Shown here piece after piece: positions 7,767 to 54,277 of a stretch of DNA of 64,000 nucleotides. The stretch is from positions 1 through 64,000 of the forward strand of contig NZ_WQRF01000002.1 in the NCBI RefSeq assembly GCF_009758415.1. The letters run 5' to 3'. Both the position numbers and the translations under genes were made by a program. The notes under the pieces were generated by a model. The model saw only the letters and a program-made list of their open reading frames with translations. It was not told the DNA's origin and did no database searches. Source of the DNA: Devosia marina (lineage in GTDB: Bacteria > Pseudomonadota > Alphaproteobacteria > Rhizobiales > Devosiaceae). Each line of letters opens with the position of its first letter. Position 1 is the stretch's first letter.

Positions 7767-8683
7767 TGCCCGCTCCATTCAAACCCCATGAGCCCATCCG
7801 CGGCGTAGCCGTCGATCAGGGCAGTGGCCTGGCTGCAGCAATTGCCGCAGCGCGCGGCGCAGATGCGCGTGATGATGACCTGGAGACCTTCAAGCGGATT
7901 GTCGTGGAAACTGCCAGCCCTGTAGCTACGACCCTTTTGGTCGACTCCACCTACGGGGCGCATTTGCTGCCGCTCATGGCGCCGCCCTGCATTCCCATGC
8001 TGGCTTTCGAAGCCGACGTTTATCACATTGCTGACGAGGACCGGATCACTCGTCTGCCCGATAACCTCACCGTGGAACAGTTTCCGACGCTCGGCGCGCC
8101 TGTCCTGAAATTCTTCCTGTACTATGGCCCCAATGATCCTGCCGAACTGAACCAGCGCAAGTTCGATCTTGTGCGCTCCATAGGTGATCGCTGCAGGGCA
8201 CAGGGCACCACGTTCCTTTTTGAACCAATCGTCTATGACCGCGCCGTTTCCGATGGCGCCTCGAAGGAATACGCGCTTCTCAAGCCCGAGCTCGTTCGTC
8301 GTGCCGTCGAGGATTTTGTCAATCCGGACTACAAGATCGACATCCTCAAGATTGAGATCCCGGTTACGCTCGAATTTGTCGAGGGCTTCGGGACACCCGC
8401 CATGAGCCGTCGCGACGCAGAAGCCGCGGTAGTGGATGTATCCAACGCGGCGGGCGACATGCCCTTTGTCTATCTCAGCGCCGGGGTGACCTACGAGCGG
8501 TTTGTCGAAGGCTTGAAGTTCTGCAAGTCCAGCTCCGGCAAGGCGGCAGGCTACATGTGTGGTCGCGCGCTTTGGAGCGATGCCATCGGCATTTTCGGAT
8601 CAGAGGGCGCAAACGCCATGGCGCGCTGGATGGAAACAACCGGCCGCGACCGGCTGGCGGGCATGAACGAGGCCATCGCATGA
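7766..8683 (+). CDS. Class I aldolase of the LacD/YihT family
   Basis: A 305-residue TIM-barrel protein that follows LacD along its length: RGVAVDQGSG, VLKFFLYYGPNDPAELN, FLFEPIVYD, DILKIEIPV and PFVYLSAGV. Lys195 in DILKIEIPV corresponds to the Schiff-base lysine, and Lys115 to a phosphate-site lysine. Family members cleave tagatose 1,6-bisphosphate or 6-deoxy-6-sulfofructose 1-phosphate to DHAP plus an aldehyde. Here the likely substrate is the ketose 1-phosphate made by DhaKL. GGAGG (7751-7755) serves either GTG 7763 or ATG 7766; I use the ATG. The next gene, an aldehyde dehydrogenase, overlaps by four bases. Confidence 0.85.
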   Translation: MPAPFKPHEPIRGVAVDQGSGLAAAIAAARGADARDDDLETFKRIVVETASPVATTLLVDSTYGAHLLPLMAPPCIPMLAFEADVYHIADEDRITRLPDNLTVEQFPTLGAPVLKFFLYYGPNDPAELNQRKFDLVRSIGDRCRAQGTTFLFEPIVYDRAVSDGASKEYALLKPELVRRAVEDFVNPDYKIDILKIEIPVTLEFVEGFGTPAMSRRDAEAAVVDVSNAAGDMPFVYLSAGVTYERFVEGLKFCKSSSGKAAGYMCGRALWSDAIGIFGSEGANAMARWMETTGRDRLAGMNEAIA

Positions 8684-10170
8684 CCATGCTGGAGCTAAAC
8701 CCAGAAGTTTCCGATTTTCTGGCTTCGGTCCAGGGGCTGCGCATTGGCGCTGAGCAGGTTCAGGCTCGCGAAACCCTTGAGGTTCTCAACCCCTCCACCG
8801 AGGAGCATCTTGCGCGAGTTGCCTGCGGCGATGCCGACCATATCGACGCCGCAGTCGATGCAGCCCGCAAGGCGCTTTCCGGCCCCTGGGGCACCATGTC
8901 CAGCCACGATCGCGGTGTGCTGATCTGGCGCTTGGCTGACGCGATCGAGGCCCGCAAGGACATCTTCGGGCAGTTGGACGCGCTCGACAACGGCAAGCCC
9001 TTTGCAAAGGCGCGTGACGTCGATGCGATCTATTCCGCCCGCCATTTCCGCTATTTCGCCGGCTGGGCCAGCAAGATCGAAGGGCGCACTATTCCTGTCT
9101 CGGATCCAGGCCGTTTCAATTACACCCGTGTGGAGCCAGTCGGCGTGTGCGGATTGATCACGCCATGGAATTATCCGACGCTGATGGTAGCCTGGAAGCT
9201 GGCGCCGGCCCTGGCAGCTGGCAATACCATCGTTCTCAAGCCTGCAGAGCAGACGCCGCTCAGTGCTCTGTATCTCGCCGATCTGGCGCTTGAAGTTGGC
9301 TTCCCGCCCGGCGTACTCAACGTCGTGCCCGGTCTTGGCGCGGGCGCGGGTGCTGCCTTGGCGGGTCACAAGGGTATCGACAAGATCGGCTTCACCGGTT
9401 CGACCGAAACCGGTCGGCGGATCGTCGCCGCTTCGACGGGAAATCTCAAAAAGGTATCGCTCGAGCTCGGTGGCAAGGCTGCCAACATCATATTCCCCGA
9501 CGCGGAAATTGAAGCCGCGATAGAGGGCTCGTTCTGGGCGCTGTTCGGAAACAACGGGCAATCGTGCACGGCGGGCGCTCGGCTCTTTGTGCACAGCTCC
9601 ATTCGCGATCAGGTTGTCGCCGGTCTGGCGAGGCGGGCCAATGCGCTTTCGGTTGGCCCGGGGATGGATTCGGAATCCCATGATCTGGGCCCCGTCATCT
9701 CCCAGCAGCAGATGGACAAAGTTCTTTCCTATGTCGGGCAGGGGCAGGCCGAGGGTGCGCAGTGCGTTGCCGGCGGCAAGCGCGTCCGCAACGCCGGGTA
9801 CTTCGTCGCTCCGACCGTGCTCGATGGAGTAACCGATACCATGTCGGTCGCGAGGGAAGAGATTTTCGGACCCGTCATGGCAGTGCTTTCGTTTGACGAT
9901 GAAGCTGAGGTGCTCGCGCGCGCCAACAATACCGATTTCGGTCTGGCCGCCGGCCTTTGGACCAATGACGTGTCTCGAGCCCACCGGATGGCGGCTCGGC
10001 TGCAGGCTGGTACGATCTGGGTCAACACCTGGGGCGATACGGACGCAGCGTCACCCTTCGGCGGGATGAAACAAAGTGGATATGGCCGTGAAATGGGCCA
10101 AGAGGCGATCGCGCTGTACTCACAAACCAAGAGCGTATGGCTCGGTCTCAAGGAATCTGATTTGATCTAA
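8680..10170 (+). CDS. NAD(P)-dependent aldehyde dehydrogenase
   Basis: A 496-residue ALDH-superfamily enzyme with its catalytic set intact: Asn164 in TPWN, Glu262 in LELGG and the nucleophile Cys296 in GQSCTAG, with the nucleotide-binding FTGSTETG at about 238-245. It oxidises an aldehyde to an acid. Position as the last gene after the aldolase suggests it removes the aldehyde fragment produced by aldol cleavage, and the acyl-CoA synthetase of the upstream operon could then activate the acid. The start ATG overlaps the aldolase stop and has GAGG seven bases upstream. Confidence 0.92.
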   Translation: MTMLELNPEVSDFLASVQGLRIGAEQVQARETLEVLNPSTEEHLARVACGDADHIDAAVDAARKALSGPWGTMSSHDRGVLIWRLADAIEARKDIFGQLDALDNGKPFAKARDVDAIYSARHFRYFAGWASKIEGRTIPVSDPGRFNYTRVEPVGVCGLITPWNYPTLMVAWKLAPALAAGNTIVLKPAEQTPLSALYLADLALEVGFPPGVLNVVPGLGAGAGAALAGHKGIDKIGFTGSTETGRRIVAASTGNLKKVSLELGGKAANIIFPDAEIEAAIEGSFWALFGNNGQSCTAGARLFVHSSIRDQVVAGLARRANALSVGPGMDSESHDLGPVISQQQMDKVLSYVGQGQAEGAQCVAGGKRVRNAGYFVAPTVLDGVTDTMSVAREEIFGPVMAVLSFDDEAEVLARANNTDFGLAAGLWTNDVSRAHRMAARLQAGTIWVNTWGDTDAASPFGGMKQSGYGREMGQEAIALYSQTKSVWLGLKESDLI

Positions 10171-40110: not shown

Positions 40111-41124
40111 TCAGTGCGTCCGATCAATCCTGCCACCCTTCGCATCGAACCTCAGGATGGCCTGCTCGCTCGCCTGAAGGACAACATTGTCGCCGTGACT
40201 GAAGGCTGCAGTACCCGATACGCGGGCGATCATCGGCTCTTCCAGACCAATGTCCGCATAAACATAGGATTCTGATCCCAGATTTTCGGTGCGATGTACT
40301 GTCCCCGTCCAACCGTCTCCACTGGACGTGACCGACAGGTGTTCGGGGCGCACACCGATCGTTGAGGCACCAAACCTTGCCGCATGTTTGCCGGTGAGCA
40401 GGTTCATCTTCGGCGAGCCGATGAAACCTGCGACGAACAAAGAGGCGGGGCGTTCATAGAGATCGAGCGGTTTTCCTACCTGCTCGATCCGGCCAGCATT
40501 GAGCACCACTATACGATCCGCCAGGGTCATGGCTTCGACCTGATCGTGCGTCACGTAGATCATCGTCGTGTCGGGGAGCGATTGCTTCAGCGTCGCGATT
40601 TCAAGGCGGGTCTGCACACGCAGGGCCGCATCCAGATTGCTCAACGGCTCGTCGAACAGGAAGACCTTTGGATCCCGCACGATGGCGCGGCCAATAGCGA
40701 CACGCTGGCGCTGGCCGCCCGAAAGCTGTCGCGGCAAGCGGTCCAGCAATGGCTCGAGCTGCAGCTTGCGCGCCGCGTCGCGCACCTTGGAATCAATGTC
40801 CGCTTTGCTCAGTTTCTGGATCTTGAGCGCATAGGCCATGTTGTCGAACACGCTCATATGCGGGTAGAGCGCATAGGACTGAAACACCATGGCAATGCCG
40901 CGCTGGGACGGCGGCACATTGGTGACGTCCTTGCCGTCAATGTTCAGCGTGCCACCGCTGACCGTCTCCAACCCCGAAATACACCGGAGCAGGGTCGACT
41001 TGCCACAGCCGGATGGCCCGACGAAGACAACGAATTCGCCTGACGGAATTTCCAGATTTACATTCCTGAGGATGTCGAAGGCGCCGAAGCGCTTTTCGAG
41101 ATTGCTGATCGTGAGTTTGGCCAT
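40111..41124 (-). CDS. ABC transporter ATP-binding protein (MalK/UgpC type)
   Basis: A 337-residue ATPase with Walker A GPSGCGKST, LSGGQRQR, Walker B VFLFDEPLSNLD and the switch YVTHDQ. A TOBE/OB regulatory domain follows with GVRPEHL. ATG 41124 is the family-like start (AKLTISNLEKRFG). It is the last gene of a MalEFGK-type operon. Such subunits are often shared among several sugar importers. Confidence 0.92.
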   Translation of the reverse strand: MAKLTISNLEKRFGAFDILRNVNLEIPSGEFVVFVGPSGCGKSTLLRCISGLETVSGGTLNIDGKDVTNVPPSQRGIAMVFQSYALYPHMSVFDNMAYALKIQKLSKADIDSKVRDAARKLQLEPLLDRLPRQLSGGQRQRVAIGRAIVRDPKVFLFDEPLSNLDAALRVQTRLEIATLKQSLPDTTMIYVTHDQVEAMTLADRIVVLNAGRIEQVGKPLDLYERPASLFVAGFIGSPKMNLLTGKHAARFGASTIGVRPEHLSVTSSGDGWTGTVHRTENLGSESYVYADIGLEEPMIARVSGTAAFSHGDNVVLQASEQAILRFDAKGGRIDRTH

Positions 41125-41143: not shown

Positions 41144-42178
41144 CTAGCGGACGAACACGGCCTTTTCGGTTTCGCGTTGATCGAAGAGGCGGAAGGCGGT
41201 TTCGGCTTCATCGAGCCGGAAGGTGTGGGTCGCCAGCCGTTCCAGGTCGATCCTGTGCGTCGATAGGGTGGCGAGGATGTCCTGGTATTCGTTGATGCCG
41301 AAATACCACGAGCCGAACACGGTCAGTTGCTTACGAATGAGTTGGTCGCTGGGGCGGATGGTGGTCTGGGCATTTTCTCCGACAAAGGCCATCCGACCAA
41401 GCGGGGCCAACGCGTCGAGTGCCATGTTGTGGGCGGCGGTATTGCCCGAGCAGTCGATGGCGCCGGTGAGCCCCTCGCCTCCGGAGAACTCCCGCATAGC
41501 CTGCGCCGCCTGGGGATCGGTGGGGTCGAGCACCAGGTCGGCGCCAAGATTCTCGGCAAATTGCCGCCTTTCGGCGATGGGGTCGAGGGCCACGACCTGC
41601 CCTCCCAGCGCCTTGGCCGCCAGTACGCCGGCCGATCCCATGGGGCCGAGACCCCAAATGCCGATGCGGGATAGCCCGTTGACGCCGACCTTGCGGCAGG
41701 CGGAGAAAAGTGTGCCGAAGGCATCAGTGGAGATGGCTGCGGCGACGGCAGACATGTGCTCCGGGACCCTGAGCAGATTCCGCGCTGGTACCTTGATGAA
41801 TTCGGCATTGCCGCCATCATAGGTGAAGCCGAGGCACTTCCACTTTGCGCAAAGGTGCATGTCGCCGCGCCGGCAATGGGCGCAGACACCGCAGCCGATG
41901 GCGAGGTAGACCGCGACGCGATCGCCCACGGCAAATTCCGTTACCGCCTCGCCGGCGGCGACAACGGTGCCTGCGGGCTCGTGGCCGCAGACGAAGCCCC
42001 CTGTCGCCTCCCCTCCCCCGACAACGGCATTGCCATAGTAGAGGCTGAGATCGCTGCGGCAGATGCACGAGGCATGCATTTCAAGCAGCACATCGTCCGG
42101 CCCCACTTCGGGCACGGGGATCGAGCGGATTTCCACTTGCTTATTGCCGGGCAGGAAGACGGCTTGCATTTGGGACAC
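41144..42178 (-). CDS. Zinc-dependent alcohol/polyol dehydrogenase (MDR family)
   Basis: A 344-residue medium-chain dehydrogenase. Catalytic zinc ligands are visible in CICRSD and GHEPAG; a structural zinc lobe is present with CGVCAHCRRGDMHLC. The nucleotide-binding motif GIWGLGPMGSAG lies near residue 175. Members oxidise polyols or sugar alcohols such as sorbitol, threonine or L-idonate. The start is set at GTG 42178, seven bases after AGGAGA, rather than the ATG nine bases further on. It lies inside the ABC operon and probably carries out the first oxidation of the imported sugar or polyol. Confidence 0.9.
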   Translation of the reverse strand: MSQMQAVFLPGNKQVEIRSIPVPEVGPDDVLLEMHASCICRSDLSLYYGNAVVGGGEATGGFVCGHEPAGTVVAAGEAVTEFAVGDRVAVYLAIGCGVCAHCRRGDMHLCAKWKCLGFTYDGGNAEFIKVPARNLLRVPEHMSAVAAAISTDAFGTLFSACRKVGVNGLSRIGIWGLGPMGSAGVLAAKALGGQVVALDPIAERRQFAENLGADLVLDPTDPQAAQAMREFSGGEGLTGAIDCSGNTAAHNMALDALAPLGRMAFVGENAQTTIRPSDQLIRKQLTVFGSWYFGINEYQDILATLSTHRIDLERLATHTFRLDEAETAFRLFDQRETEKAVFVR

Positions 42179-42191
42179 GGAATTTCTCCTG

Positions 42192-43010
42192 TTACTTGAC
42201 GGCGCCAGCGGTGAGGCCGCGCACAAAGGATCGCTGCATGGCGAGGAACAGCACGACGAGCGGCGCAAACGCGATGAGACCCGCGGCAGCAATCCCTCCA
42301 TAGTCGACGCCGTAGCGGCCCTGGAGGCTCGCCGCCCCTACCGTCAGCGGCTTGAGGCTTTCGGTCTGGAACACCACGAGCGGCAGCAGGTATTCCTGCC
42401 AGGCGAAAAGGAAGGTGATCAGCCCCAGGGACATAAGGCCAGGCTTGACCACCGGCACGACGATGGTGAGGAAAATCTTGAACAGGCCGGCGCCATCCAT
42501 TACCGCCGCTTCGATGAGTTCGTCGGGCACGTCCTGCATGACCGTGCGCATCATGAAGACCGAGAAGGGCATCAGCAATGCCGCCTGGGGCAGGATCACC
42601 CCGATGCGATTGTCGATGAGGCCCAGCGCCTGAAGGTTACCGTAGAGTGCCACGATCACCGAGGGCGCCGGCACCACGAGACCGGCGAGAAACAGCCCGA
42701 ACAGCGCTTCCTTGCCGCGGAAGTTCATCTTGGCAAAGGCGAACCCTGCCAGAGGCGCCGTCAACACCACGAGAATGGTCACGCTGACGGCGGTGATGAC
42801 GCTGTTCATGAAGAAGGTGGCAAAGCCCGCTTCGCTCCAGATGCGACCAAAATTGTTGAAGTTGATTGGCCAGCTTAAGGTCAGCGGCCCGGAAAACAGG
42901 TCGGCTTCACTGCGAATGGCTGCCAGGAACACCAAGTAGACCGGGACCAGCGCATAGAGCGCAAAAACCAGGAGGATCAGGTTCTGAACGAGACGAGTGC
43001 TCTTGGTCAT
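42192..43010 (-). CDS. Sugar ABC transporter permease (MalG type)
   Basis: A 272-residue permease with six hydrophobic segments and the EAA loop ELIEAAVMDGAGLFKIFLTI. The start overlaps the stop of the MalF-type partner and is preceded by GAGGAA. It forms half of the channel that serves the binding protein at 43932. Confidence 0.92.
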   Translation of the reverse strand: MTKSTRLVQNLILLVFALYALVPVYLVFLAAIRSEADLFSGPLTLSWPINFNNFGRIWSEAGFATFFMNSVITAVSVTILVVLTAPLAGFAFAKMNFRGKEALFGLFLAGLVVPAPSVIVALYGNLQALGLIDNRIGVILPQAALLMPFSVFMMRTVMQDVPDELIEAAVMDGAGLFKIFLTIVVPVVKPGLMSLGLITFLFAWQEYLLPLVVFQTESLKPLTVGAASLQGRYGVDYGGIAAAGLIAFAPLVVLFLAMQRSFVRGLTAGAVK

Positions 43011-43867
43011 GATTTCCTCAAGAGGGCAAAGGCGCCGGCGCTGATGGAAAGAACTATGATGAGCAGCACGACCGAGAGGGTTGCGGCATAGCCGAAGTCA
43101 CCGACAAGGAAGAAGGTCTTGTAGATGTGGGTTGTGAGCACTTCGGTGGAATATCCCGGCCCGCCCTGGGTCGTGACCCAGACCAGGTCGAAGAAGCGCA
43201 TGGCCTCGATCGCGGCATAGAGGCCGAGAAACAGTGTAGAGCCGCGCAGCAGGGGCACGGTGAGGTCCCGGAACTTGCGCCACCAGCTGGCACCGTCGAT
43301 CGAAGCGGCCTCGTAGAGCGAAGGATCGATCGACTGGATAGCGGCCAGGTAGATGATCACGCAGAAGCCGAAGAAGGTCCACGCACCGACGACGTTGAGA
43401 GAGAGCAGCGCGGTATTGTCCTGCGCTAGCCAGGCACCGGCCAGCCCGCCGAGACCAACTGCCTCGAGCGCGAAATTAAGCAGGCCGAAGATGGGATTGT
43501 AGATCCAACCCCAGATGATGCCGGCGACCACCAGCGGGATCGTCCGAGGGATGAAATATATCGCTCCCAACCAGCGCACCACACTGGCGTTGCGCTCGGC
43601 CAGGATTGCGGCAAGGACCAACCCGGCGAGGAGCGGAAAGGCCAAGGTCAATACTACCCAGATGGCATTGTGCCAGAGCGCGGTCCAGAACACACCGTCA
43701 GCGAGCAGCCGCCCGTAATTGGCAAGGCCGATGAAGTCGCCGGCAATGCCGTTGTCCCAGTCAAAGAAGCTGAAGCCGAAGATCTGCAGGATGGGCAGTC
43801 CGACGAACAGCAGGTAGAGGGCCAGTGATGGCGCCAGAAACAGATAGGCAGATCGGGTGGTCAGCAT
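43007..43867 (-). CDS. Sugar ABC transporter permease (MalF type)
   Basis: A 286-residue permease with six hydrophobic segments and an EAA loop, SLYEAASIDGASWWRKFRDL. ATG 43867 has GGAG five bases upstream; the GTG at 43873 is less likely. It pairs with the MalG-type permease, whose start overlaps its stop by four bases. Confidence 0.92.
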   Translation of the reverse strand: MLTTRSAYLFLAPSLALYLLFVGLPILQIFGFSFFDWDNGIAGDFIGLANYGRLLADGVFWTALWHNAIWVVLTLAFPLLAGLVLAAILAERNASVVRWLGAIYFIPRTIPLVVAGIIWGWIYNPIFGLLNFALEAVGLGGLAGAWLAQDNTALLSLNVVGAWTFFGFCVIIYLAAIQSIDPSLYEAASIDGASWWRKFRDLTVPLLRGSTLFLGLYAAIEAMRFFDLVWVTTQGGPGYSTEVLTTHIYKTFFLVGDFGYAATLSVVLLIIVLSISAGAFALLRKS

Positions 43868-43931
43868 GGGCACTCCAACGGGCTAGAGTGGTGGGCCCCC
43901 GAGGGAGCCCACCTGAGACGGCCAGGCGCGG

Positions 43932-45236
43932 TCAGGGCACCCAGCGCTCACCATTGTCAATGGCCGTTTCCCAAGCTGCATCCATGGCGCTCAGGAAATC
44001 ATCGGGGGTCACGTCACCGCCGATGAGCCGCTGCAGTTCGGGGTAGAGCACCTGGGTCACGCTTTCGGGCAGGGTTGTATGCAGATCGTAGAAGTTGGCA
44101 TCCGACGTCGCGAGGCCCTGAGTGAAGAATGACTTGACGATGGGCAGAGTGTCCCACTGCTTGAGTTCCTCAGGGGTCGTGCCGATTGGGACAAGATAGC
44201 CCTTCTCGACCCAGACCTTGCGGCTCTCCGGCGAGATCAGGCAGTTTATGTAGGCAGCGGTTGCGTCCTTCACTTCCTGACTGGCATTGGCGGAAACCTG
44301 CCACTGCGAGCCCTCGCCCCACATGGTGCCCGGCGGCACGCCGTCGGCGATCGGGGGCAGCATGAAGACGCCGAGGTCGAACGAGGCACCTCGCGCCATA
44401 TCCTGCAGCACCCAGGTGCCTGTAATGGTCATGGCGGCCCGGCCCGAGAGGAACAGCGCATTGGCTTCATCATAGCCGATGCCATTGAAGCCTTTGGGGA
44501 AGTAGCCGTTCTTGGCCCAGGACTGGAAGGTCTCCGCCGCCAGCTTGAACTGGTCATTGGTCCAAGACGCATCCCCAAAGAGCACGGCTTCCTCGCCATC
44601 CTTGCCAGCGGTGAGGCCAAGCAGCAGGCTCAAAGTATTGGTCGCTGGCCAGCGGTCGCGGTTGCCGAAGGCGATGGGTGTGATGCCCTTTTCCTTGAAG
44701 GCTTCAACCGCGGCCTGGAACTCGGCATAGGTGGTGGGGACGGCTATGCCGTTTTCCTCGAAGAGGGTCGGATTGTAGTACACCCCCATCAGGTCCTGCT
44801 CCATCGGCACGCCATAGATGGCACCATCGAAGCTGTTGCGACCGCGATAGAAGTCGTTGATGCCCTCCCATCCATACTGCTCATAATAGTCGTCGAGCGG
44901 CGCCAGGGCACCAACTCGGGCATAGCCTGCCAGCACTGATGCGGCCGGCCAGGTATAGGCAAGGTCCGGTGTCTTGTTGGCAGAGACGGCAAGACGATAG
45001 CTGTCGCGGATGCCGATCGAAGGCGCGATTGTGCGCAGCACGGTGGCGCCACCAAGATCGGGCTCGCAGGTGCCAATCAGTTCGTCCATCGCCGGGCCGG
45101 CGGCCGTAATGCCGGCCATGGCAAACTGATCCCATTGCGTCACCACGGTTTGGGCCGTTGCGGTCTGAATCGAGACGCTTGCAGTGATGCCGGCCGCAAG
45201 CAGCACGGGCAGCGACCGTCGGGTCGAAAGTGTCAT
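43932..45236 (-). CDS. Sugar ABC transporter substrate-binding protein, family 1
   Basis: A 434-residue periplasmic protein with an N-terminal signal peptide ending ATA-Q near residue 29 and GAAGGAGG upstream of the ATG. The mature protein has family 1 features such as GAIYGVPMEQDLMGVYYNPTLF and AAMTITGTWVLQDM. It captures a sugar or polyol for the MalF/G-type permeases immediately downstream. Nearby dehydrogenase and epimerase genes support a polyol or rare-sugar ligand. Confidence 0.92.
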   Translation of the reverse strand: MTLSTRRSLPVLLAAGITASVSIQTATAQTVVTQWDQFAMAGITAAGPAMDELIGTCEPDLGGATVLRTIAPSIGIRDSYRLAVSANKTPDLAYTWPAASVLAGYARVGALAPLDDYYEQYGWEGINDFYRGRNSFDGAIYGVPMEQDLMGVYYNPTLFEENGIAVPTTYAEFQAAVEAFKEKGITPIAFGNRDRWPATNTLSLLLGLTAGKDGEEAVLFGDASWTNDQFKLAAETFQSWAKNGYFPKGFNGIGYDEANALFLSGRAAMTITGTWVLQDMARGASFDLGVFMLPPIADGVPPGTMWGEGSQWQVSANASQEVKDATAAYINCLISPESRKVWVEKGYLVPIGTTPEELKQWDTLPIVKSFFTQGLATSDANFYDLHTTLPESVTQVLYPELQRLIGGDVTPDDFLSAMDAAWETAIDNGERWVP

Positions 45237-45280: not shown

Positions 45281-46108
45281 TCAGGCCAGCAACGAACGGA
45301 TATAGTCGTGAGCGCGCCGGGCTAGGTCGTCCGGCTCCACATTGCGGCGATTGAAGCCGATCTCCATGGTGAGATAGCCTTCAAAACCCTCGGTCTTGAG
45401 GGCATCGAGCAAGCTCCGGTAATCCACCACGCCGCTGCCGGGTGGTTCCCGGTTCACGTCGGCGAAGTGGATATGGGCCAAGTCGCGACCCAGGCGATGC
45501 ACGTAGTCGGTGGGCACTTCGTTGCGGTAGAGCGTATGAAACGTGTCGAACATTGCCTTGACGTTTGGCAGATCGACCTGCGCCAGCATCGCGATAAGGT
45601 CATCGCAATCGTCGACGAGATTGCTGTCGGATGCCGTGGGCTCGACGGCAATTGTAATGCCAAGCGGACGGGCAAACTCGGCGATTTCGCGCAAGGCATC
45701 GCGGCTCCAGCCCCAGGCCTGCTCGCGGCTGGTGCCGTACACCTGCCAGCCGGCGACATAGAGCAGCGTCTTGCCGCCCCATTCAGCGCAAAGCTCGGCG
45801 ACCTGCTTATACTGGTCGATTGCGCCCGCCCGTTCCAGCGGGTTGGCCGATGCGACATTGAAACCGGGGCCGCCGCCTGGGGCAGGCAACATGCTCGAGA
45901 CGGCCAAGCCGTAGTCATCGAGGACCTGGCGGATTTCGCGACGGCGCTCCCTGGTGAGATATTCGGGATAGGCATGGGGGCTGGCGGCGCCGATTTCGAT
46001 ACCGTCATAGCCGATGCGCGCAAGGCGCTTGATGACCTCTTCGAGGGGATAAGCCGGCACCCAGACCGGAAAGCTCGAATAGACCCAGGTGTTGAATGCC
46101 AGTTTCAA
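45281..46108 (-). CDS. Sugar phosphate isomerase/epimerase (TIM barrel)
   Basis: A 275-residue xylose-isomerase-like protein. Metal ligands are suggested by ITIAVEPTASDSNLV, VKAMFDTFH, LAHIHFADVNREPPG and LTMEIGF. It probably isomerises or epimerises a ketose linked to the adjacent transporter. It is the first gene of the minus-strand operon (45281 back to 40111). GGAGGAAAG precedes the ATG. Confidence 0.88.
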   Translation of the reverse strand: MKLAFNTWVYSSFPVWVPAYPLEEVIKRLARIGYDGIEIGAASPHAYPEYLTRERRREIRQVLDDYGLAVSSMLPAPGGGPGFNVASANPLERAGAIDQYKQVAELCAEWGGKTLLYVAGWQVYGTSREQAWGWSRDALREIAEFARPLGITIAVEPTASDSNLVDDCDDLIAMLAQVDLPNVKAMFDTFHTLYRNEVPTDYVHRLGRDLAHIHFADVNREPPGSGVVDYRSLLDALKTEGFEGYLTMEIGFNRRNVEPDDLARRAHDYIRSLLA

Positions 46109-46179
46109 AACTCTTTCCTCCGTCAGGCAAGGCGATCTCGTCGCAGGAAACGAGTTCCCACGAAAGGCCGGCGTTCTTT

Positions 46180-46197
46180 GCGCCAGAGGCGCTTTTT
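46180..46197 (+). other. T-tailed hairpin in the operon promoter region
   Basis: GCGCC (46180-46184), AGA, GGCGC (46188-46192) and TTTTT (46193-46197) have the form of a short plus-strand intrinsic terminator, but no plus-strand gene lies upstream. It may instead be part of an operator for the regulator at 46285 in the 176-base gap before the epimerase gene. Confidence 0.4.
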
Positions 46198-46284
46198 AGT
46201 CATGATCAACGCTTACGGGACTACACTGAGGCGAACCACCCGCGAAGATGTCCAAATTGGATAGAATTTAATGGCATTTTGGTC

Positions 46285-48057
46285 CTACTGCTTGTCCCGC
46301 CCGCGCATGACCGCTTCAGCACGGCTTTGCGCCCTGGCTAGAGCATCGGCGCGGCTCTTCTGCCCACTGAGCATGTCGTGTATTTCTTCTCCGGCTATCG
46401 TGATCAGAGCAGAAATACCGGGAACGGGTGGCCGGGGCCATGCGCGCAGGACACCCTGGCGCGCAATGGTGTCAACGATACCGATTATCGGTGAAATGGC
46501 CCTCACTTCCGGATCGCGATTGACACTGAATCGCGGGCTAGCAAGGCTACCATTGGTCACAAAGAGCTTGGCCGCACTTGCCGATGTCAGCGCTTCCAAG
46601 GCTGCCCAGGCCGGTGCAATCCGTTCCGGCGCGATATTGCTCGGAATTGCCAGGGCGTAGCCGCCCAGGGGTGAAATCGGCCTGCCTGTCAGCCCAGTGG
46701 GCTGCGGGAGATAGCCGGTTTTTCCGTATGCCGGAGAATTGGGATCGCGCTCGAACAGGTTCACAAGCAGGGTATGTGCATAGGCAAGGGCCGCATGGCC
46801 GCTGGTATAGGCGCGCGCACGATCATACCAGGTCATGGAGAGGATGCCTGGTGGCGAAACCGCCAGAAGGGATTGCAGATAGTCAGCCGCCACGTGAGCC
46901 GCTTCGCTGTCGAACATTGGACGCAGGTCGGCGTCGGACATGTCCTCGGGCAGAAAGCCGTCGGCCGCCTGGCTAAGGTTTACGATCGGCTGGCCATGGG
47001 CCGCCATGGTCACCATGAAGGTATGCCCCAGTGCTGTGCCCCTTCCACCATTCCAGGCAATTCCGAACCGGCCGCGCTCAGGCGCATGCAAGGCGCTTGC
47101 CACGGCAAGCGCGTCGGAAGTGGTCCTTGGCGGTTCGAGGCCCGCCTCCTCCAGCAGGTCTGTCCGGTAGACGAGAAGCTCAGCTGTGCTCAGCACGGGA
47201 ATGCCATATTGGTGGCCACGACGGCGGGCGCTGGCCATGGCATCTGGCAGGAAATCGGAGGTATCCATTTCTGACTGGACGATGAGATCGTCTAGTGCGC
47301 GCAGGCGGCCATGCCGGACCATATCGCCGAACCAAGGCAGGTCGCAGGCTATGATGTCGTACGCCGAGGCCGGGCGTTGTCCGTTCTGGACAATTTCGGC
47401 GTGCAGGCGATCTATGGACAGGGCTTTGGACTGGATCGGGACGCCAAGGATCATCTCAAACTGGCGCTTGAGCGTGTTCATGGCCATGAATGTGGGATCC
47501 GCATGAACTAGCAGTCGCAACCCACGCGGCAGCGCCAGTTTGGTTTCCAGCACCGTGGGTGGCGGAATGACAGAAGCGATGTCGGCCACAGGCTTTCGCA
47601 CCACCCCTGCGCCATCGCCGCTCACCTGATCGATCAGGCGGCGAGTATGACCGGCGAACAGTTGCCAGCGGCGTAGAAGTTCCGAGGTGGGATGCAATGA
47701 AAAGGAACGGCCAGTCGCGGTGCGGGTTCGCCTAACAAGGAACCCGTCGGCTACGAGCCCCTCGATCGCTCGAAAGGCGGTGCCGTAACTCAGCCCCGAA
47801 GCTGCGGCCAGGGAGGACATGGTGGTCAGCCGCCCGCTGACGTGATTGCGCATCAGGTGGAGCACGATGCCCAGATCACGCGAGTCTATCCCCAGATGAC
47901 CGCTGGTCGTGCTGCGCAGGGCATCCACAAACTCGATGGTCTGCATCATGGCAACGTTGGAGGCCGACCGTACAGCCGAGGGATCCTGTGCCTCATAGGG
48001 GCCTTCCGGAAGCCCCCCTGTCCGGTCAGGTTTCTGCACTCGAGAAGATCTGGCCAC
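46285..48057 (-). CDS. Winged-helix regulator fused to a solute-binding-protein domain
   Basis: A 590-residue chimera. Residues 60-125 form a MarR/IclR-like winged helix (LAAASGLSYGTAFRAIEGLVADGFLVRR). Residues 175-575 form a family 1 extracellular solute-binding-protein fold (LLVHADPTFMAMNTLKRQFEMI, YGIPVLSTAELLVYRTDLL, SPLGGYALAIPSN). There is no signal peptide and the N-terminus is a DNA-binding domain, so the protein must be cytosolic. The binding domain presumably senses the sugar imported by the adjacent MalEFGK-type transporter and controls its operon. The start is GTG 48057, seven bases after AGGTG. Confidence 0.85.
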   Translation of the reverse strand: MARSSRVQKPDRTGGLPEGPYEAQDPSAVRSASNVAMMQTIEFVDALRSTTSGHLGIDSRDLGIVLHLMRNHVSGRLTTMSSLAAASGLSYGTAFRAIEGLVADGFLVRRTRTATGRSFSLHPTSELLRRWQLFAGHTRRLIDQVSGDGAGVVRKPVADIASVIPPPTVLETKLALPRGLRLLVHADPTFMAMNTLKRQFEMILGVPIQSKALSIDRLHAEIVQNGQRPASAYDIIACDLPWFGDMVRHGRLRALDDLIVQSEMDTSDFLPDAMASARRRGHQYGIPVLSTAELLVYRTDLLEEAGLEPPRTTSDALAVASALHAPERGRFGIAWNGGRGTALGHTFMVTMAAHGQPIVNLSQAADGFLPEDMSDADLRPMFDSEAAHVAADYLQSLLAVSPPGILSMTWYDRARAYTSGHAALAYAHTLLVNLFERDPNSPAYGKTGYLPQPTGLTGRPISPLGGYALAIPSNIAPERIAPAWAALEALTSASAAKLFVTNGSLASPRFSVNRDPEVRAISPIIGIVDTIARQGVLRAWPRPPVPGISALITIAGEEIHDMLSGQKSRADALARAQSRAEAVMRGRDKQ

Positions 48058-48125
48058 GCATTACACCTGTTCGCGCCTTTGCCGCACCGTGCGGCCGTGG
48101 CGGCTATACCGCCACAGCCCGCCTG

Positions 48126-49273
48126 TCAGGGCACCGGCCGCAGATCGGCCTCGGTCAAGACACGCTGCGCATCTTCGGCGAGCAGCCATCCCTCTGCAAG
48201 AAGCTTGTCGACCGAGGCCCCCGCCTTGGCCACGTAGTTCTGGTGCACGCCCACTACGCCATAGAGTTCGTGCAGCTTGGCAGTGCCGAAATCGATCTAG
48301 TGTCCGAAAGACCAGGCATAAGCAACCCTTCGACGGGAGTGGCGCTCTCGAAGTAGGTCGCGGTGGGCACGTCGAGATAGGGGCTTCGCACCCCCCGCAG
48401 CACACTGAGGATTGCTTCTTCAAAGCGAACCAGGGCGTTGGCACCCATGCGGTCGACGAGGACACGTTACCCGGAGATTCCTTCGTTGAGAACGGCCGTT
48501 GGACGTCGCCCTTATCCTGCAGTCGCTTCGCCAGCACATCGGGCCATCGAGTATTTGCGTCTGCGGTAGACCCGTCACCATCGGTGATTGAATCTCCAAA
48601 GGTGACGATGGCGCGCGCGTCTTCCGGAGCGTCCACGGTGATGGCGCTCAGGAAAAGCCGTGCCAGCGTCGTGTTATCAGACACGATCTCAACATCTGCA
48701 GTTTTGTTTCCAGGGACGATATAGGCCATTTGGCGCCCGCCGCTATGAACGGTCGAAGTCGGCGTGACATCCGGAAAATAGAGGCTGACGGCTACTGAAC
48801 CCAGTGGGGGCACATCAAGGTCAACAGGGTCGCTGATCATTGTGGCGCCAGCAGGTATGGTAATGGACTCCATGCCGCTAAACACTGCCGGCCATGGTGA
48901 CTGCGCCTGTACAATGCAGAGCAACGCGCGCCTCACCAACTACCATCGGCTGTTCGCCATATTCGTTGGAAAGTGTAATGCGCACCTGTGTGCCGTCCAT
49001 GGAAACTCGGGCGACCAGGCGGACCGTCTGGTCCCAAAGGTTGCGCGGATAGCCCAACGGGGCCAGGAAGTCGGGGCCCCATACGGGTTGGGGCGCAGCA
49101 GCCCAGGTATCGATCCACCCTTCTGCAAAGGCCGCGCTTCCCCCAGGACTGATGCCTGCGGCTAGAGCCAGGGCGAACGCCAGTTTCTTCCCTGTCCTTT
49201 TCCACCCTCTTAATGAGCCAGCTCCGGCTCTTTGCCCCCTTTCTTGAGACAATACGGACTTGTCGCAACGCAT
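48126..49273 (-). pseudogene. Decayed SGNH/GDSL hydrolase with a foreign alpha/beta-hydrolase tail
   Basis: The 5' part encodes a signal peptide and GWIDTWAAAPQPVWGPDF, the start of a GDSL/SGNH hydrolase. The frame shifts near 48885, continues through VTFGDSITDGDGSTADANTR (the catalytic Ser block), and shifts again near 48480 to GISGN-like and MGANALVRFEEAILSVL remnants. The remainder to the TGA at 48126 reads LHELYGVVGVHQNYVAKAGA, resembling the tail of an unrelated alpha/beta-hydrolase-domain protein, after an in-frame stop. At least two frameshifts plus a deletion fusion make it non-functional. Confidence 0.8.
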
Positions 49274-49388
49274 AGATGTCTCCTCGGTTTTTGGTGTGTG
49301 ATGCGTGCTCTTTTCGGCACGCCTTCACCGTTGGAGAGATCGAATGCCGGCATGTCTGCCAGGGAACCCGGGTCCGACCGCTTGGTAG

Positions 49389-50369
49389 TCAGGCGGGACG
49401 TGTGCCCGCCTGGCTCAAAGCCACGGCGAGAATGATGATCCCGCCGCGAGCGATAAGCTGCTGGGAATATTCGAGGCCCATCAGGATGAGGCCATTGTTG
49501 ATGACACCGATCATCAGGGCGCCGATGATCGAGCCCACCACGGTGCCCTTGCCGCCGAAGAGGCTGGTGCCGCCCAGCACCACGGCCGCGATTACCGACA
49601 ATTCGTCGCCTTCCCCGAGCTGGAACCGCCCCGTCTGCAGCCGCCCGGCATAGAGCATACCCGCTAGGGAGGCGGTGACTGCGGAGATGACAATGACCCA
49701 GAGCTTGATGCGGCTGGTATTGATGCCGCTATAGCGCGCCGCCACGACATTGCCGCCCACAGCCAGGATCTGCCGACCGAACTTGGTGCGGCGCAGGACA
49801 ACGTGGCCGATGACACCCACGACCAGCATCCAGAGCAGCAGGGTTGGGATCGGCCCGATATTGCCGCCGCCGAAAATGGCCGGATAGGTGCGGTCGAGCA
49901 CGGGAATAGCGGCAGTGCCGGAAATCCACATGGCCGTGCCCTTGGCGATGCCCATCATGGCCAGCGTGGTGAGGAAGGTCGGGATCATCAACCGCGTCGA
50001 GAGGAACCCGTTGATCAGCCCAACAGTGACGCCGGTCATGATGCCTGCGGCAATGCCCGCCGGCAGCCCGCCCCAAGCGACAGCCATGGCCGTAGTGACC
50101 GAGGCCAGTCCCGCAACCGCACCGACCGAGAGGTCGATTTCTCCGGACGACAGGACCAGCGTCATTGCCACCGCCATGACGGCGATCATGGCCGTCTGCC
50201 GGGCGATGTTAAGGATGTTGTTGGGCGCCAGGAACCCCTTGTCGTACAGGGTGATGGCAAAGAACGCGAACACAACGACAAAACCGATATAGATGATGTT
50301 CTGCCGCCAGGTGCGCTTGAAATAGCCCAATGGTGTTTCGCGGCCCGCCACTGCCAGATTGTCAGACAT
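49389..50369 (-). CDS. Ribose/myo-inositol-type ABC transporter permease (RbsC-like)
   Basis: A 326-residue permease with eight to ten hydrophobic segments. SSGEIDLSVGAVAGL and the region VLGGTSLFGGKGTVVGSIIGAL are family features of RbsC-type BPD_transp_2 permeases. ATG 50369 overlaps the ATPase stop by eight bases, with GAGGAAACC upstream. It forms the channel for the binding protein at 53159. Confidence 0.92.
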   Translation of the reverse strand: MSDNLAVAGRETPLGYFKRTWRQNIIYIGFVVVFAFFAITLYDKGFLAPNNILNIARQTAMIAVMAVAMTLVLSSGEIDLSVGAVAGLASVTTAMAVAWGGLPAGIAAGIMTGVTVGLINGFLSTRLMIPTFLTTLAMMGIAKGTAMWISGTAAIPVLDRTYPAIFGGGNIGPIPTLLLWMLVVGVIGHVVLRRTKFGRQILAVGGNVVAARYSGINTSRIKLWVIVISAVTASLAGMLYAGRLQTGRFQLGEGDELSVIAAVVLGGTSLFGGKGTVVGSIIGALMIGVINNGLILMGLEYSQQLIARGGIIILAVALSQAGTRPA

Positions 50370-51909
50370 GGTTTCCTCCCCGCTGCACAATCAGCTGCAG
50401 CTTTTGTTCGGCGCGCAATTCGGCTGCGTCGCCAGTCGTGGTCAAAAGGTCCGCCTTGTCGATCGTTTCGACCAGACGCCCGCCTGAAATCACCGCGATA
50501 CGGTCGCTGACGGCGGCAAGCTCGGCAAGTTCGGACGAGATGAAGATGATGGACTTGCCTTCGGCGGCGAGCGCGCGGACCAGCCGCAGCACCTCTCCCT
50601 TGGAGCCGATGTCGATGCCGGCCGTGGGCTCATCCATGATGAGAATGTCGGGATCGGTCGCCAGCCATTTGCCGATCACGATCTTCTGCTGGTTACCGCC
50701 GGAAAGGGAATTGGCAGGCGCTTCGCGCGAAGCCGTCTTGATGGCGAGGCGTTTGATCAAATCGTCCGCTGTGCTGCGCGATTTCATCCGATCGACGAAA
50801 GGGGTCGAACCGAGGCGCTTTAGGATGGGCAGCTCGATGTTGTCCTGGATGGAATGGGCCAGGACCAGCCCCTGCCGCCGCCGGTCTTCGGGCACCAGCG
50901 CCAGGCCGAGTTCGGTGGCATGCCGCGCCGAGCCGATGGAGATTGTTTCTCCCCGCAGCGTAATGGTGCCGCTGGCAATCGGTTCGAGCCCAAAGAGCAT
51001 GCGAGCCAGTCGGCTGCGCCCTGCCCCCAGCAGGCCCGCAATCCCAAGCACCTCGCCGCGCCGGAGCGAAAAGCTGACATCACCATCCCGGCGCAGCTTG
51101 CTCGCGAGGTGCTCGACCTTGAGGATAATGTCGTCCTGTACCGTAGACTCGGTCGCGAATTCGGACAGGTCACGGGTTTCCTTACCCATGATGTCGGCAA
51201 TCAGCGTCGCCAGGGTATAATCGGTGATTGGACGGCTATCGATCAGCCGCCCATCGCGCAACACGGTCGCATGGTCGGCAATGCGGAAGATTTCATCCAT
51301 GCGGTGGCTGACATAGATGATCGCCTTGCCCTCGCTCCGGAGGCGCCGCAGTAGGTCGAAGAGGATATCCACCTCGCTCGCGGTGAGCGCCGAGGTCGGT
51401 TCGTCGAGAACCAGCACCTCGGCATTCTGCGACAGGGCCTTGGCGATTTCCGTCAACTGTTGCTGGCCGGTGGAGAGGTCCGCCACCATGGCAGTGGGAT
51501 CGACGCTCACCCCCATCGAGGCAAAGATGGCGGCACTGCGCTGCTCCATCGCCCGGTCGTCGATCAGTCCCGCCGATGTCAGCGGTTCGCTTGCGAGAAA
51601 CACGTTCTGCGCCACGCTCAGCGTCGGCACCAGGCTCATTTCCTGGAAGATCATGCCGATGCCCTTGTGCCGGGCCAGTTGCGGGGAAAGGCGTTCGAAC
51701 GCCTCCCCTCCAATGATGATGCTGCCGCTATCGGGCGCCTGGACGCCGCGCAGGATCTTGAGAATGGTGGACTTGCCGGCCCCGTTCTCACCCAGCAGCG
51801 CATGGATCTCGCCATTGCAGACGCTGAGGCTGACCTCACGCAGCGCATGGACGCCGCCGAAACGCTTGGAGATCGCATCCATCTCCACCGCGATCGGCTT
51901 GATCGCCAT
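50362..51909 (-). CDS. Sugar ABC transporter ATP-binding protein, two-domain (RbsA-like)
   Basis: A 515-residue protein with two ATPase halves. The first has Walker A GENGAGKST, the signature LSTGQQQL and Walker B LVLDEPTSALT. The second has GLLGAGRSR at the degenerate Walker A, LSGGNQQK and LIMDEPTAGID. This layout is that of RbsA/XylG/MglA. ATG 51909 is used; GTG 51918 overlapping the upstream TGA is an alternative. It energises the RbsC-like permease. Confidence 0.92.
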   Translation of the reverse strand: MAIKPIAVEMDAISKRFGGVHALREVSLSVCNGEIHALLGENGAGKSTILKILRGVQAPDSGSIIIGGEAFERLSPQLARHKGIGMIFQEMSLVPTLSVAQNVFLASEPLTSAGLIDDRAMEQRSAAIFASMGVSVDPTAMVADLSTGQQQLTEIAKALSQNAEVLVLDEPTSALTASEVDILFDLLRRLRSEGKAIIYVSHRMDEIFRIADHATVLRDGRLIDSRPITDYTLATLIADIMGKETRDLSEFATESTVQDDIILKVEHLASKLRRDGDVSFSLRRGEVLGIAGLLGAGRSRLARMLFGLEPIASGTITLRGETISIGSARHATELGLALVPEDRRRQGLVLAHSIQDNIELPILKRLGSTPFVDRMKSRSTADDLIKRLAIKTASREAPANSLSGGNQQKIVIGKWLATDPDILIMDEPTAGIDIGSKGEVLRLVRALAAEGKSIIFISSELAELAAVSDRIAVISGGRLVETIDKADLLTTTGDAAELRAEQKLQLIVQRGGNHV

Positions 51910-51914
51910 CTCGG

Positions 51915-53078
51915 TCACGGAATGTCTACCCACTGGCCGCTCTCGCCCGAGGCGAGGATGGCGTCGGCGATCAGGGCGATCCGATACCCGTCCTCGAAAT
52001 TGGGCGATGGCTGCTGGCCGGTGACGATGGCGGTGCACAGATCGTAGCATTCCACGATCTTGGTCTCGCCATAGCCGATGCCGAGTGCCGGGATGGGCCA
52101 GAGCCCCGATCCGTAGGGATGGGCGGGACCCGTATAGACCGTGCGGAAGCCGCGTGCATCGCCGACGTCATCGGCGAACATGACCTGGAGTTCGTCGCGA
52201 CGCTCGTAGTTGAAAGCCAGTGATCCCTTGGTGCCGTGGATTTCGAAAGTGAGGAAATTATTGCGGCCATAGGCATTGCGGGTGGCTTCTATCGAGCCGA
52301 TGGCACCGTTGGCAAACTTGAGCATGGTCAGCATTTCGTCATCGACGTCGACCGGGCCGCGTTCAGCATTCTTGTCGCCGCCGCCGACGCCGAGCTTGTC
52401 GACGCCTTCCGCCTGCTTGGGGCGGGTGGGGATGTGGTTCTTGACCAGCGCGTTGACCGAGGCGATCTCGCCGATGAGGTAGCGGGCGAAGTCCACGACG
52501 TGTGTCCCGATATCCCCCACGGTGCCGGAGCCTGCAATCGATTTCTGGAAACGCCAGGACAGCGGGCTGTCCGGATCAGCGGACCAGTCCTGCAGATAGG
52601 TGCCGCGAAAGTTGAGAATATCGCCGATGCGGCCTTCCTCGATCAGCTTCTTGGCAAGGGCCACGGCCGGGGTGCGGCGGTAGTTGAAGGCCACCATGTG
52701 GATGGAGCCGGACCCCTGGACCGCGTCGAGCATGCTTTTGGACTCATCTCCTGTCCGAGCCAGCGGTTTCTCGCAGATGATGTGCTTGCCGGCCCTGGCC
52801 GCGGCAATAGCAATCTCGGCATGAGAATTGTTTGGCGTGCAGATGTCGATGATGTCGATGTCGGGCCGGGCAACAACGGCGCGCCAGTCGGCAGTGGCCT
52901 CTTCGAAACCAAAGCGGTCACGTGCCGTCTCGGCCATCTCCTGATTGACGTCCACGACCACCTTGCGCACCGGGATGGCGGGTGCCGGCCAGAAGAACAT
53001 CGGCATGGCGGCATAGGCCATGGCGTGGGCCTTACCCATGAAACCGCCACCGATCATGGCGACATTGAGCTTTCGCAT
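51915..53078 (-). CDS. Gfo/Idh/MocA-family oxidoreductase
   Basis: A 387-residue NAD(P)-dependent dehydrogenase with GGGFMGKAHAMAY at the Rossmann loop, CEKPLA (residues 100-105) with the catalytic Lys, and GTVGDIGTHVVDFARYL with the conserved Asp and His. It belongs to the inositol/glucose-fructose oxidoreductase group. Its place between the binding protein and ATPase of an Rbs-type importer and near an IolE-like epimerase suggests oxidation of an imported cyclitol or sugar. Confidence 0.92.
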   Translation of the reverse strand: MRKLNVAMIGGGFMGKAHAMAYAAMPMFFWPAPAIPVRKVVVDVNQEMAETARDRFGFEEATADWRAVVARPDIDIIDICTPNNSHAEIAIAAARAGKHIICEKPLARTGDESKSMLDAVQGSGSIHMVAFNYRRTPAVALAKKLIEEGRIGDILNFRGTYLQDWSADPDSPLSWRFQKSIAGSGTVGDIGTHVVDFARYLIGEIASVNALVKNHIPTRPKQAEGVDKLGVGGGDKNAERGPVDVDDEMLTMLKFANGAIGSIEATRNAYGRNNFLTFEIHGTKGSLAFNYERRDELQVMFADDVGDARGFRTVYTGPAHPYGSGLWPIPALGIGYGETKIVECYDLCTAIVTGQQPSPNFEDGYRIALIADAILASGESGQWVDIP

Positions 53079-53158
53079 TTTGCTGTCTCGCTTTTGGAAA
53101 TGTTGTGCAGGGACGGCTCGGGAGGTTCCGTCCCCGCAATAGGTGCCGGGAGGCGCAC

Positions 53159-54277
53159 CTAGTTCATGGAGTCCCGGACCGTGGCCGGTGCTTCGGTGGA
53201 ATAGACGGCCTGCCAGGCATCGAGCAGGTTGTCTTTTTCGACCGGCAGGGCGGGCAGGGCCACATAGGCCGGCGCGTCTTTGCCGAGCAGGCCAAAGCCG
53301 GCGAGCTTGGCTTCGGTCACGCCTTGGTCGAACGGCCGCTGCGCGCCCAGACCCTTGACGAAACCGCCGCGTGCCATGTCAATGGCGACATTCTCGCCCA
53401 GATCGATAGTGGTGATGACAAGGTCATCGCGACCATTGGCGCGTGCTGCGGAGATTACGCCTTCGGCAGGCACGTCCCAAACTGCCCAGATACCATCGAT
53501 ACCGGCATTCCCCACCATCATCGCCGAGGCAGCCCTATCGGCATCACCGGTAAAGTCGGGTCCACCTATCCCCTGTTCGGCGACGATCTCGATATCGGGG
53601 TAATTCTGCTCGATGGTGGCCTTGAACGCATCGTAGCGCTGGCGCGTCACGAAGAAATCTGCGGCGTGGTAGACGATGCCGATCTGGCCTTCGCCGTCCA
53701 GCGCCTTGGCCATGAGGTGGGCGGATGCAACGCCATTGCCGTAGTTGTCGGCGGAGACGACACTGATATAGTCGGTACCGGCGGTGAACCCGGCCGGGAC
53801 ATTGTCCATAAAGACCAGCTTGACGCCAGCCTCGGCGGCTTGGCGGTAAGCGCTGGCGGTGGCCGTCGGATCGGTCGGGATCGACACGATGATATCGGGG
53901 TTCTGCGCCATGATGGTTTCGATGTCGGAAACCTGCTTGGCCGAATTGAAGCCGGCATCAGTGGTAGCAATAACCTCGATGCCCATGGCGGCGAACTGGG
54001 TCTGCAGGCCATTGATCTGGGCTTGGCTCCAGTCGTCGCCACCGTAGTGCATGACTATGGCCGCAGTGGCGCCCATAGCCTTGATCTCGGCCAGTTCGTC
54101 ATCTGTGAGATTGATCTCCGAGGGCGAAACCGGGCTTTCGCCGCCCGGGCCGGTGCTCAGTGTCTGGTTGGCGAGGGCCGCCAGTGCCTCGTCCGGGCTC
54201 TGCGCGAAGGCAGCTCCGGCGATCGTCCCCGCGAGCAGTGCCGCACCCAGCAGCGCTGTCATCTTTAGATGTCCCAT
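53159..54277 (-). CDS. Sugar ABC transporter substrate-binding protein (RbsB-like)
   Basis: A 372-residue periplasmic protein with a signal peptide ending AFA-Q near residue 25 and GGGAGG before the ATG. Family 2 features include SIPTDPTATASAYRQAAEAG, FMDNVP, GTDYISVVSADNYGNG and GIWAVWDVPAEG. It delivers a sugar or cyclitol to the RbsA/C-like transporter. A cytosolic paralogue lacking the signal is encoded at 56679, with the same ligand-site motifs. Confidence 0.92.
   Translation of the reverse strand: MGHLKMTALLGAALLAGTIAGAAFAQSPDEALAALANQTLSTGPGGESPVSPSEINLTDDELAEIKAMGATAAIVMHYGGDDWSQAQINGLQTQFAAMGIEVIATTDAGFNSAKQVSDIETIMAQNPDIIVSIPTDPTATASAYRQAAEAGVKLVFMDNVPAGFTAGTDYISVVSADNYGNGVASAHLMAKALDGEGQIGIVYHAADFFVTRQRYDAFKATIEQNYPDIEIVAEQGIGGPDFTGDADRAASAMMVGNAGIDGIWAVWDVPAEGVISAARANGRDDLVITTIDLGENVAIDMARGGFVKGLGAQRPFDQGVTEAKLAGFGLLGKDAPAYVALPALPVEKDNLLDAWQAVYSTEAPATVRDSMN

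Follow-up and report, generated by a model that had tools for sequence, protein, structure and literature searches.

Genes and features at the locus

The window, by which the whole analysed stretch of 64,000 nucleotides from Devosia marina is meant, contains a minus-strand ORF whose 590-aa product joins an N-terminal winged helix to a complete family 1 solute-binding domain. The first-pass annotation had reported this arrangement at the same position, and its limits for the two parts (residues 60-125 and 175-575) prove close, the DNA-binding domain being larger, at about 33-145. A presumed target operon lies downstream and an Rbs-type operon upstream, as follows.

46285..48057, minus strand: putative regulator gene, 590 aa, GTG start (ORF and translation, Pfam, family alignment, structure model)
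47608..47961, minus strand: MarR-type winged-helix domain, residues 33-150, with both flanking dimer-type helices (domain model and structure searches; Pfam)
47749..47787, minus strand: predicted recognition helix, residues 91-103, with invariant A94 and R96 (family alignment and model)
46306..47544, minus strand: family 1 solute-binding (MalE-type) domain, residues 172-584 (Pfam and structure search)
46249..46263, no strand assigned: predicted operator, reading TATCCAATTTGGACA on the minus strand and lying after the regulator stop (46285) and ahead of the isomerase start (46108)
47378..47392, no strand assigned: second copy, TGTCCGTTCTGGACA, within the regulator coding sequence, conserved in the nearest Devosia loci
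45281..46108, minus strand: sugar isomerase/epimerase-like gene, first of the presumed target operon (Pfam, similarity, comparison of loci)
43932..45236, minus strand: transporter solute-binding protein (Pfam SBP_bac_8 and SBP_bac_1), export signal seen by eye
43007..43873, minus strand: MalF/UgpA-type permease
42192..43010, minus strand: MalG/UgpE-type permease
41144..42169, minus strand: zinc-dependent dehydrogenase, start codon chosen in the analysis
40111..41124, minus strand: UgpC/MalK-type ATPase, start codon chosen in the analysis
49389..54277, minus strand: upstream Rbs-type operon (binding protein, Gfo/Idh, ATPase, permease), named by similarity to annotated records

The enzymes of the downstream operon are an epimerase-like TIM barrel and a dehydrogenase that comes nearest to the threonine and scyllo-inosose dehydrogenase models, with both matches below the family cut-offs. 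On the other side of the regulator gene, about 3.3 kb separate an Rbs-type permease gene from the regulator in two related loci (L025 and L026); this stretch, as read in L025, contains two large ORFs in tandem and on the same strand. At 48058-49388 of the window only the start of the first ORF and the end of the second are left, with broken frames and a GDSL-lipase-like match, and this segment seems to be a remnant in which the tandem pair was fused by deletion.

Domain architecture of the putative regulator

An AlphaFold2 model of the whole protein, built from an alignment of 32 family members, reached a pLDDT of 85.7 and a pTM of 0.83. It places helices at residues 33-55, 59-74, 80-86 and 91-103, a two-stranded wing at 107-123 and a further helix at 125-145, after which the binding-protein domain begins. 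Structure prediction had been proposed as a check of the two-domain claim, and both parts folded as expected, into a MarR fold and a complete family 1 binding-protein fold, respectively.

Searches with the whole protein list binding proteins only, so the N-terminal domain was modelled and searched separately (pLDDT 90.2). Its best structural match was the MepR-DNA complex 5fb2_A (VIA search; Z 13.5, rmsd 2.4, 114 of 118 residues), followed mostly by other MarR proteins, and the best Foldseek hit was MarR itself (3bpx, E 1.1e-4). The domain model has the winged helix between dimer-forming helices that defines the MarR fold. Pfam detects this region below its cut-offs, with MarR/IclR-type matches at about residues 65-117 that include MarR_2 at 65-117 (E 0.001, 23.2 bits against 27) and MarR (18.6 bits against 24.6); MarR_2 was detected in 20 of 27 family members at E <= 0.1. 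Since these gathering scores are not reached, the term MarR-type domain is used here rather than MarR protein. Among the residues of the domain that never vary are A94 and R96, both in the predicted recognition helix, and three wing residues, R110, G116 and S118; helix 91-103 would be expected to read DNA by analogy with the MarR fold.

The C-terminal part belongs to the family 1 solute-binding fold by both Pfam and structure. SBP_bac_1 matches residues 227-496 (E 8.7e-23, 82.2 bits against a cut-off of 26), and residues 172-584 align to 5iai over 395 residues (VIA-align 2; Z 46.0, rmsd 2.4). The complete fold is held in common with Arad_9887 (5iai), the trehalose/maltose-binding protein (1eu8) and AVI_3567 (4rya), at about 20-25% identity. 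Those three proteins are parts of transporters, whereas the window protein is without an export signal and possesses a DNA-binding domain.

Mean column identity over the whole family alignment is 66%, with many invariant residues in the solute-binding domain. The motif PEGP(Y/F)E at residues 17-22 (47992-48009), in the disordered N-terminal tail, is nearly invariant in alignment A1 and missing from more distant family members. The GTG start is supported because PEGP falls at residues 17-20 and is nearly invariant in that alignment. No signal peptide is visible at the N-terminus, as judged by hydrophobicity and by eye, and the first-pass annotation was right on this point too. The product is thus probably a cytosolic-type protein in which a MarR-type DNA-binding domain is fused to a MalE-type sugar-binding domain, as judged from sequence and model.

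Family distribution and annotation

Full-length relatives occur in Devosia, Kaistia, Rhizobiaceae, Rhodobacterales, Skermanella, Paraburkholderia and low-GC genomes of 1.4 Mb. One scan of genome contigs gave 31 loci, 30 of them near full length and one partial (L055), in genera that include Devosia, Mesorhizobium, Kaistia, Aureimonas, Bauldia, Bosea, Roseibium, Silicimonas, Cypionkella and others. A full-length copy is present in 8 of the 37 genomes searched of the window's genus (its own included), and the protein of D. subaequoris DSM 23447 is 95% identical to that of the window. For the order, 30 nearly full-length copies were found in at least 28 of 297 genomes, a lower bound since four candidates were scored per genome. 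At E <= 1e-60, matches were obtained in 8 of 385 genomes at the class level and in 6 of 398 at the phylum level, the window's own genome being counted in both and one of the six lying outside the class. In three of the class-level genomes, which are 1.4 Mb in size, GC content near the gene is about 34%, and the protein there retains its DNA-binding domain. Among plasmids, 213 records match, 32 of them at >= 80% coverage. The fusion is an old and widespread family, not a local oddity.

Public annotation presents these proteins differently. Twelve regions were fetched from annotated records, and the protein is annotated in 11: nine times as "extracellular solute-binding protein", once as a periplasmic component of a sugar transport system, and once as hypothetical. 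None of the 11 names it a regulator, which suggests a systematic annotation error.

Gene neighbourhoods

Two arrangements dominate among the 31 loci. In 13 of them (L025-L037), the order regulator, isomerase, SBP1, MalF, MalG and zinc-dependent dehydrogenase is kept on one strand, with UgpC next in nine of the 13; the isomerase operon is divergent from the regulator in L054, and the same genes are rearranged in L042. The remaining 16 loci have Rbs-type permease genes directly upstream of the regulator, so that the Rbs-type operon seen upstream in the window recurs beside the regulator in related loci. On plasmids of Skermanella, Phaeobacter, Marinovum and Shinella the regulator is divergent from the Rbs-type operon, and likewise in L090, L091, L094 and L095. 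In L051, two family members (1849-3588 and 7861-9531; 52% and 37% identical to the window protein, respectively) lie about 4 kb apart on opposite strands and flank an Rbs-type operon.

A separate branch of the family, seen in L060, L062, L064, L065, L066 and L071, lies within or next to gene clusters for intradiol dioxygenase, maleylacetate reductase, YciI, Gfo/Idh and dehydrogenase proteins, although individual loci may have only some of these genes. The linkage suggests a pathway via a hydroxylated aromatic.

Predicted operator

The strongest evidence for a regulatory role is a common inverted repeat, TRTCCANNNTGGAYA, that recurs across the family at the promoter regions where a regulator of these operons would be expected to bind. 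It was first seen when the 15 intergenic regions that precede the isomerase in the window and in 14 loci were aligned: the Devosia and Kaistia-like loci have one short block in common despite otherwise diverged flanks, and in the window it reads TATCCAATTTGGACA. In the window this site, at 46249-46263, lies 141 bp upstream of the isomerase start and inside the interval 46109-46284 that the first-pass annotation had singled out, a position that fits its proposal that the protein controls the adjacent operon. The strict pattern occurs twice in the window at one mismatch or fewer, against 0.26 expected. Because a conserved peptide is encoded by the second occurrence (47378-47392), a function for that site is doubtful, and it was not counted.

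In loci with Rbs-type neighbours, operator scans placed the motif before the regulator gene and also between divergent SDR and SBP4 genes. Within 300 bp upstream of the regulator match, TRTCCANNNTGGAYA was present at one mismatch or fewer in 15 of 17 loci (L038-L041 and L043-L055, among which L054 has the divergent isomerase operon and L055 is partial; L042, with different neighbours, was left out); it was not found there in L043 and L046. The mean over all 180 permutations of the arm was 0.18, the true arm and the near-identical TATCCR included; TATCCR scored 12, and no other permutation exceeded 1. Among 24 further regions that, except for L057 (part of the original alignment), were not used to define the motif, seven reach 11 of 12 matches, against an average of 0.07 for the 179 other permutations, the best of which is again TATCCR with 9. 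The other 17 regions have no site at this level, and some of them hold variant palindromes.

The symmetry of the site appears to be conserved. When 13 sites before the isomerase gene, picked by where they fell in the alignment or the scan, were taken together, 67 of 78 arm pairs were complementary; with the pairing slid, the counts were 18 and 21 of 78. The only site that differs at pair 4, that of L036, is changed on both sides (TGTTC...GAACA; variant TGTTCGTAATGAACA). More distant members show symmetric variants in the same promoter regions, namely TATTCAATTTGAATA in L090, TATTCAAATTGAATA in L091 and TATCCGAAACGGATA in L065 and L066; as these palindromes were picked partly for their symmetry, they are at most suggestive. 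In L090 and L091, from the low-GC 1.4-Mb genomes, a perfect 17-bp palindrome sits between the regulator and the divergent Rbs-type operon.

In the Devosia loci the scan found no operator in front of either the regulator or the Rbs operon, and autoregulation is therefore not supported in the window's own genus. A consensus scan found no sigma-70-like promoter near the operator. Elsewhere in the window's genome, seven regions with perfect or near-perfect sites were examined; six lie within called ORFs, and the seventh, at C2:57062, falls outside any called ORF and precedes a gene whose start looks GAF-like from its sequence. A wider regulon was rejected, these other sites being read as chance or undecided, and an excess of 52 against 7 (operator against backwards pattern) was disregarded, as it may reflect codon bias.

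Proposed mode of action

Both folds are present, no signal peptide is visible, the family is old with sugar-operon neighbours, and a conserved symmetric site stands at the right promoters. It is highly likely that the protein acts as a one-component cytosolic regulator, probably a repressor, whose MarR-type domain sits on the predicted operator and whose family 1 domain senses a sugar, polyol or catabolic intermediate. From the folds and the site we infer dimerisation, DNA binding by the regulator, ligand binding and the sign of control. Specifically, the N-terminal domain would dimerise through its MarR helices and bind the inverted repeat; the family 1 domain would close on a cytosolic sugar, polyol or intermediate; and closure would change how the two winged helices are spaced or oriented, thereby altering the DNA-binding state. 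Ligand would thus release the repressor and free the transport and catabolic genes. The likely target in the window is the downstream operon of isomerase, MalEFG-type transporter, dehydrogenase and ATPase, while in relatives the regulator would act, among other targets, on its own promoter and on Rbs-type transporter operons. The nature of the ligand, probably a sugar, polyol or intermediate, is suggested by the nearest solved relatives, which bind sugars or polyols, and by the enzyme genes of the operon.

The alternative with most in its favour, although we consider it somewhat unlikely, is that the protein is an activator, bound upstream of the promoter and recruiting RNA polymerase upon ligand binding. 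The 141 bp between site and isomerase start in the window would be far enough for an upstream activator site. However, in most loci with Rbs neighbours no more than about 40 bp separate the site from the regulator's first in-frame start codon, which suits a repressor, and most MarR proteins repress.

The regulator could also act mainly on the Rbs-type operon that lies upstream (49389-54277) or on its own gene, with control of the MalEFG-type operon incidental. Rbs-type genes are the commonest neighbours, adjoining the regulator in all 16 loci that are without the isomerase-MalEFG operon, and the operator is present at Rbs-type promoters in several loci. Nevertheless, the conserved site sits between regulator and isomerase in the window and the other isomerase-operon loci, and the Devosia loci showed no such site at the Rbs promoter, so this choice of target is unlikely. 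It is also quite unlikely that the solute-binding domain binds no small molecule and serves only for dimerisation or protein docking in what would still be a DNA-binding regulator: the domain is complete, as its alignment to 5iai attests, and highly conserved.

Finally, an exported or membrane-bound binding protein with an N-terminal region that does not bind DNA, as the automatic annotation of relatives would have it, is very improbable against the lack of a visible signal peptide, the match of the MarR fold to a DNA complex and the conserved predicted operator. A hydrophobic stretch in the first 60 residues of the L066 member aligns with the second helix of the DNA-binding domain.

Origin of the sensor domain

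The first-pass annotation had proposed a cytosolic sensor that controls the adjacent operon and arose by recent conversion of a transporter binding protein. Its cytosolic-type character, DNA-binding fold and MalE-type sensor are upheld, but the recent conversion is not. A converted copy of the neighbouring transporter's protein (43932-45236) might be imagined from the presence of both proteins in Pfam SBP_bac_1/SBP_bac_8; yet the two match with only 26.9 bits over 83 residues, the tree speaks against a local event and the fusion family is old and widely spread, so that we reject this origin as exceedingly improbable. With such a short and weak match, the ligand competition proposed between the two proteins rests on no close sequence kinship. 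More generally, the MalE-type domain is kept while the neighbouring transporter often uses another binding-protein family, so the sensor would not simply copy the transporter's specificity.

The tree was built from 59 rows, near-duplicates, the partial L055 and weak hits being left out. It unites 45 fused proteins and one exported protein, that of L068, on a single branch (support 100/98). Branches are long, and 42% of bootstrap trees show the one-origin topology; the exported protein may have given rise to the sensors or may derive from one of them. A score of more than 200 bits with the profile of the family's binding domain is reached by 58 ORFs (several loci counted twice); 57 of these also carry the DNA-binding domain, and the exported L068 protein is the sole exception. 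This locus, in a genome of the same order, has a family member followed by a signal-peptide-bearing 448-aa protein, MalF, MalG and two UgpC genes. Aligned over 418 columns, the exported protein and the window's sensor domain are 38% identical.

L068:7955-11176: putative operon with a family member directly upstream of the exported binding protein; identity between the latter's domain and the sensor domain of the family is about 40%

A broader reading, speculative but possible, is that these proteins form an unnoticed and widespread regulator class, mislabelled as secreted, that senses a common class of cytosolic catabolic intermediates rather than the imported sugar, and that in at least one lineage, that of L068, the sensor and the exported protein have swapped the same domain. 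If this is true, a cell of that lineage would read the same kind of ligand inside and outside the cell with sister domains.

Comparison with known systems

Several known regulators are built along related lines. MarR proteins are of about 140 aa and bind their ligand within the MarR domain itself. With the members MepR, MexR, SlyA and MarR, the window protein has in common the complete MarR fold with flanking helices and palindromic sites; in contrast to these single-domain proteins, it is 590 aa long with a separate, complete sensor domain of about 410 aa. LacI/GalR proteins are sugar regulators with the same two-part build of a DNA-binding domain and a periplasmic-binding-type domain, but both their DNA-binding domain and their binding-protein fold class are different, and neither the LacI-type helix-turn-helix nor the family 2 binding-protein domain matches the window protein (Pfam, E <= 1).

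GntR-family fusions with SBP_bac_1 may exist in Firmicutes; a literature search gave no confirmation of them, and if real they would lower the novelty of the family described here. A search of open-licence papers found no description of a fusion between a MarR-type domain and a family 1 binding protein. The family is apparently undescribed, although the joining of DNA-binding and solute-binding domains is itself a known kind, seen in SgrR and DsvR.

Of the known kinds, SgrR, in which a DNA-binding domain is joined to a family 5 binding protein, comes closest. In PMC13060122 its relative DsvR is given an N-terminal HTH domain and a C-terminal SBP_bac5 domain, and the likeness to the window protein extends to an N-terminal DNA-binding domain, a C-terminal domain of the ABC-transporter solute-binding type and a carbohydrate-related regulon. 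In contrast to the helix-turn-helix and SBP_bac_5 domains of SgrR/DsvR, the window protein has a MarR-type domain and a family 1 (MalE-type) sensor, and Pfam finds neither SgrR_N nor SBP_bac_5 in it at E <= 1. The MalE-type fold is thereby added to the sensor domains of bacterial regulators, in a conserved family with a predicted operator. Laboratory chimaeras in which periplasmic binding proteins are fused to DNA-binding domains follow the same design principle, according to PMC6079105, whereas the present family is natural and conserved, and could provide a natural template for biosensors of that built kind.
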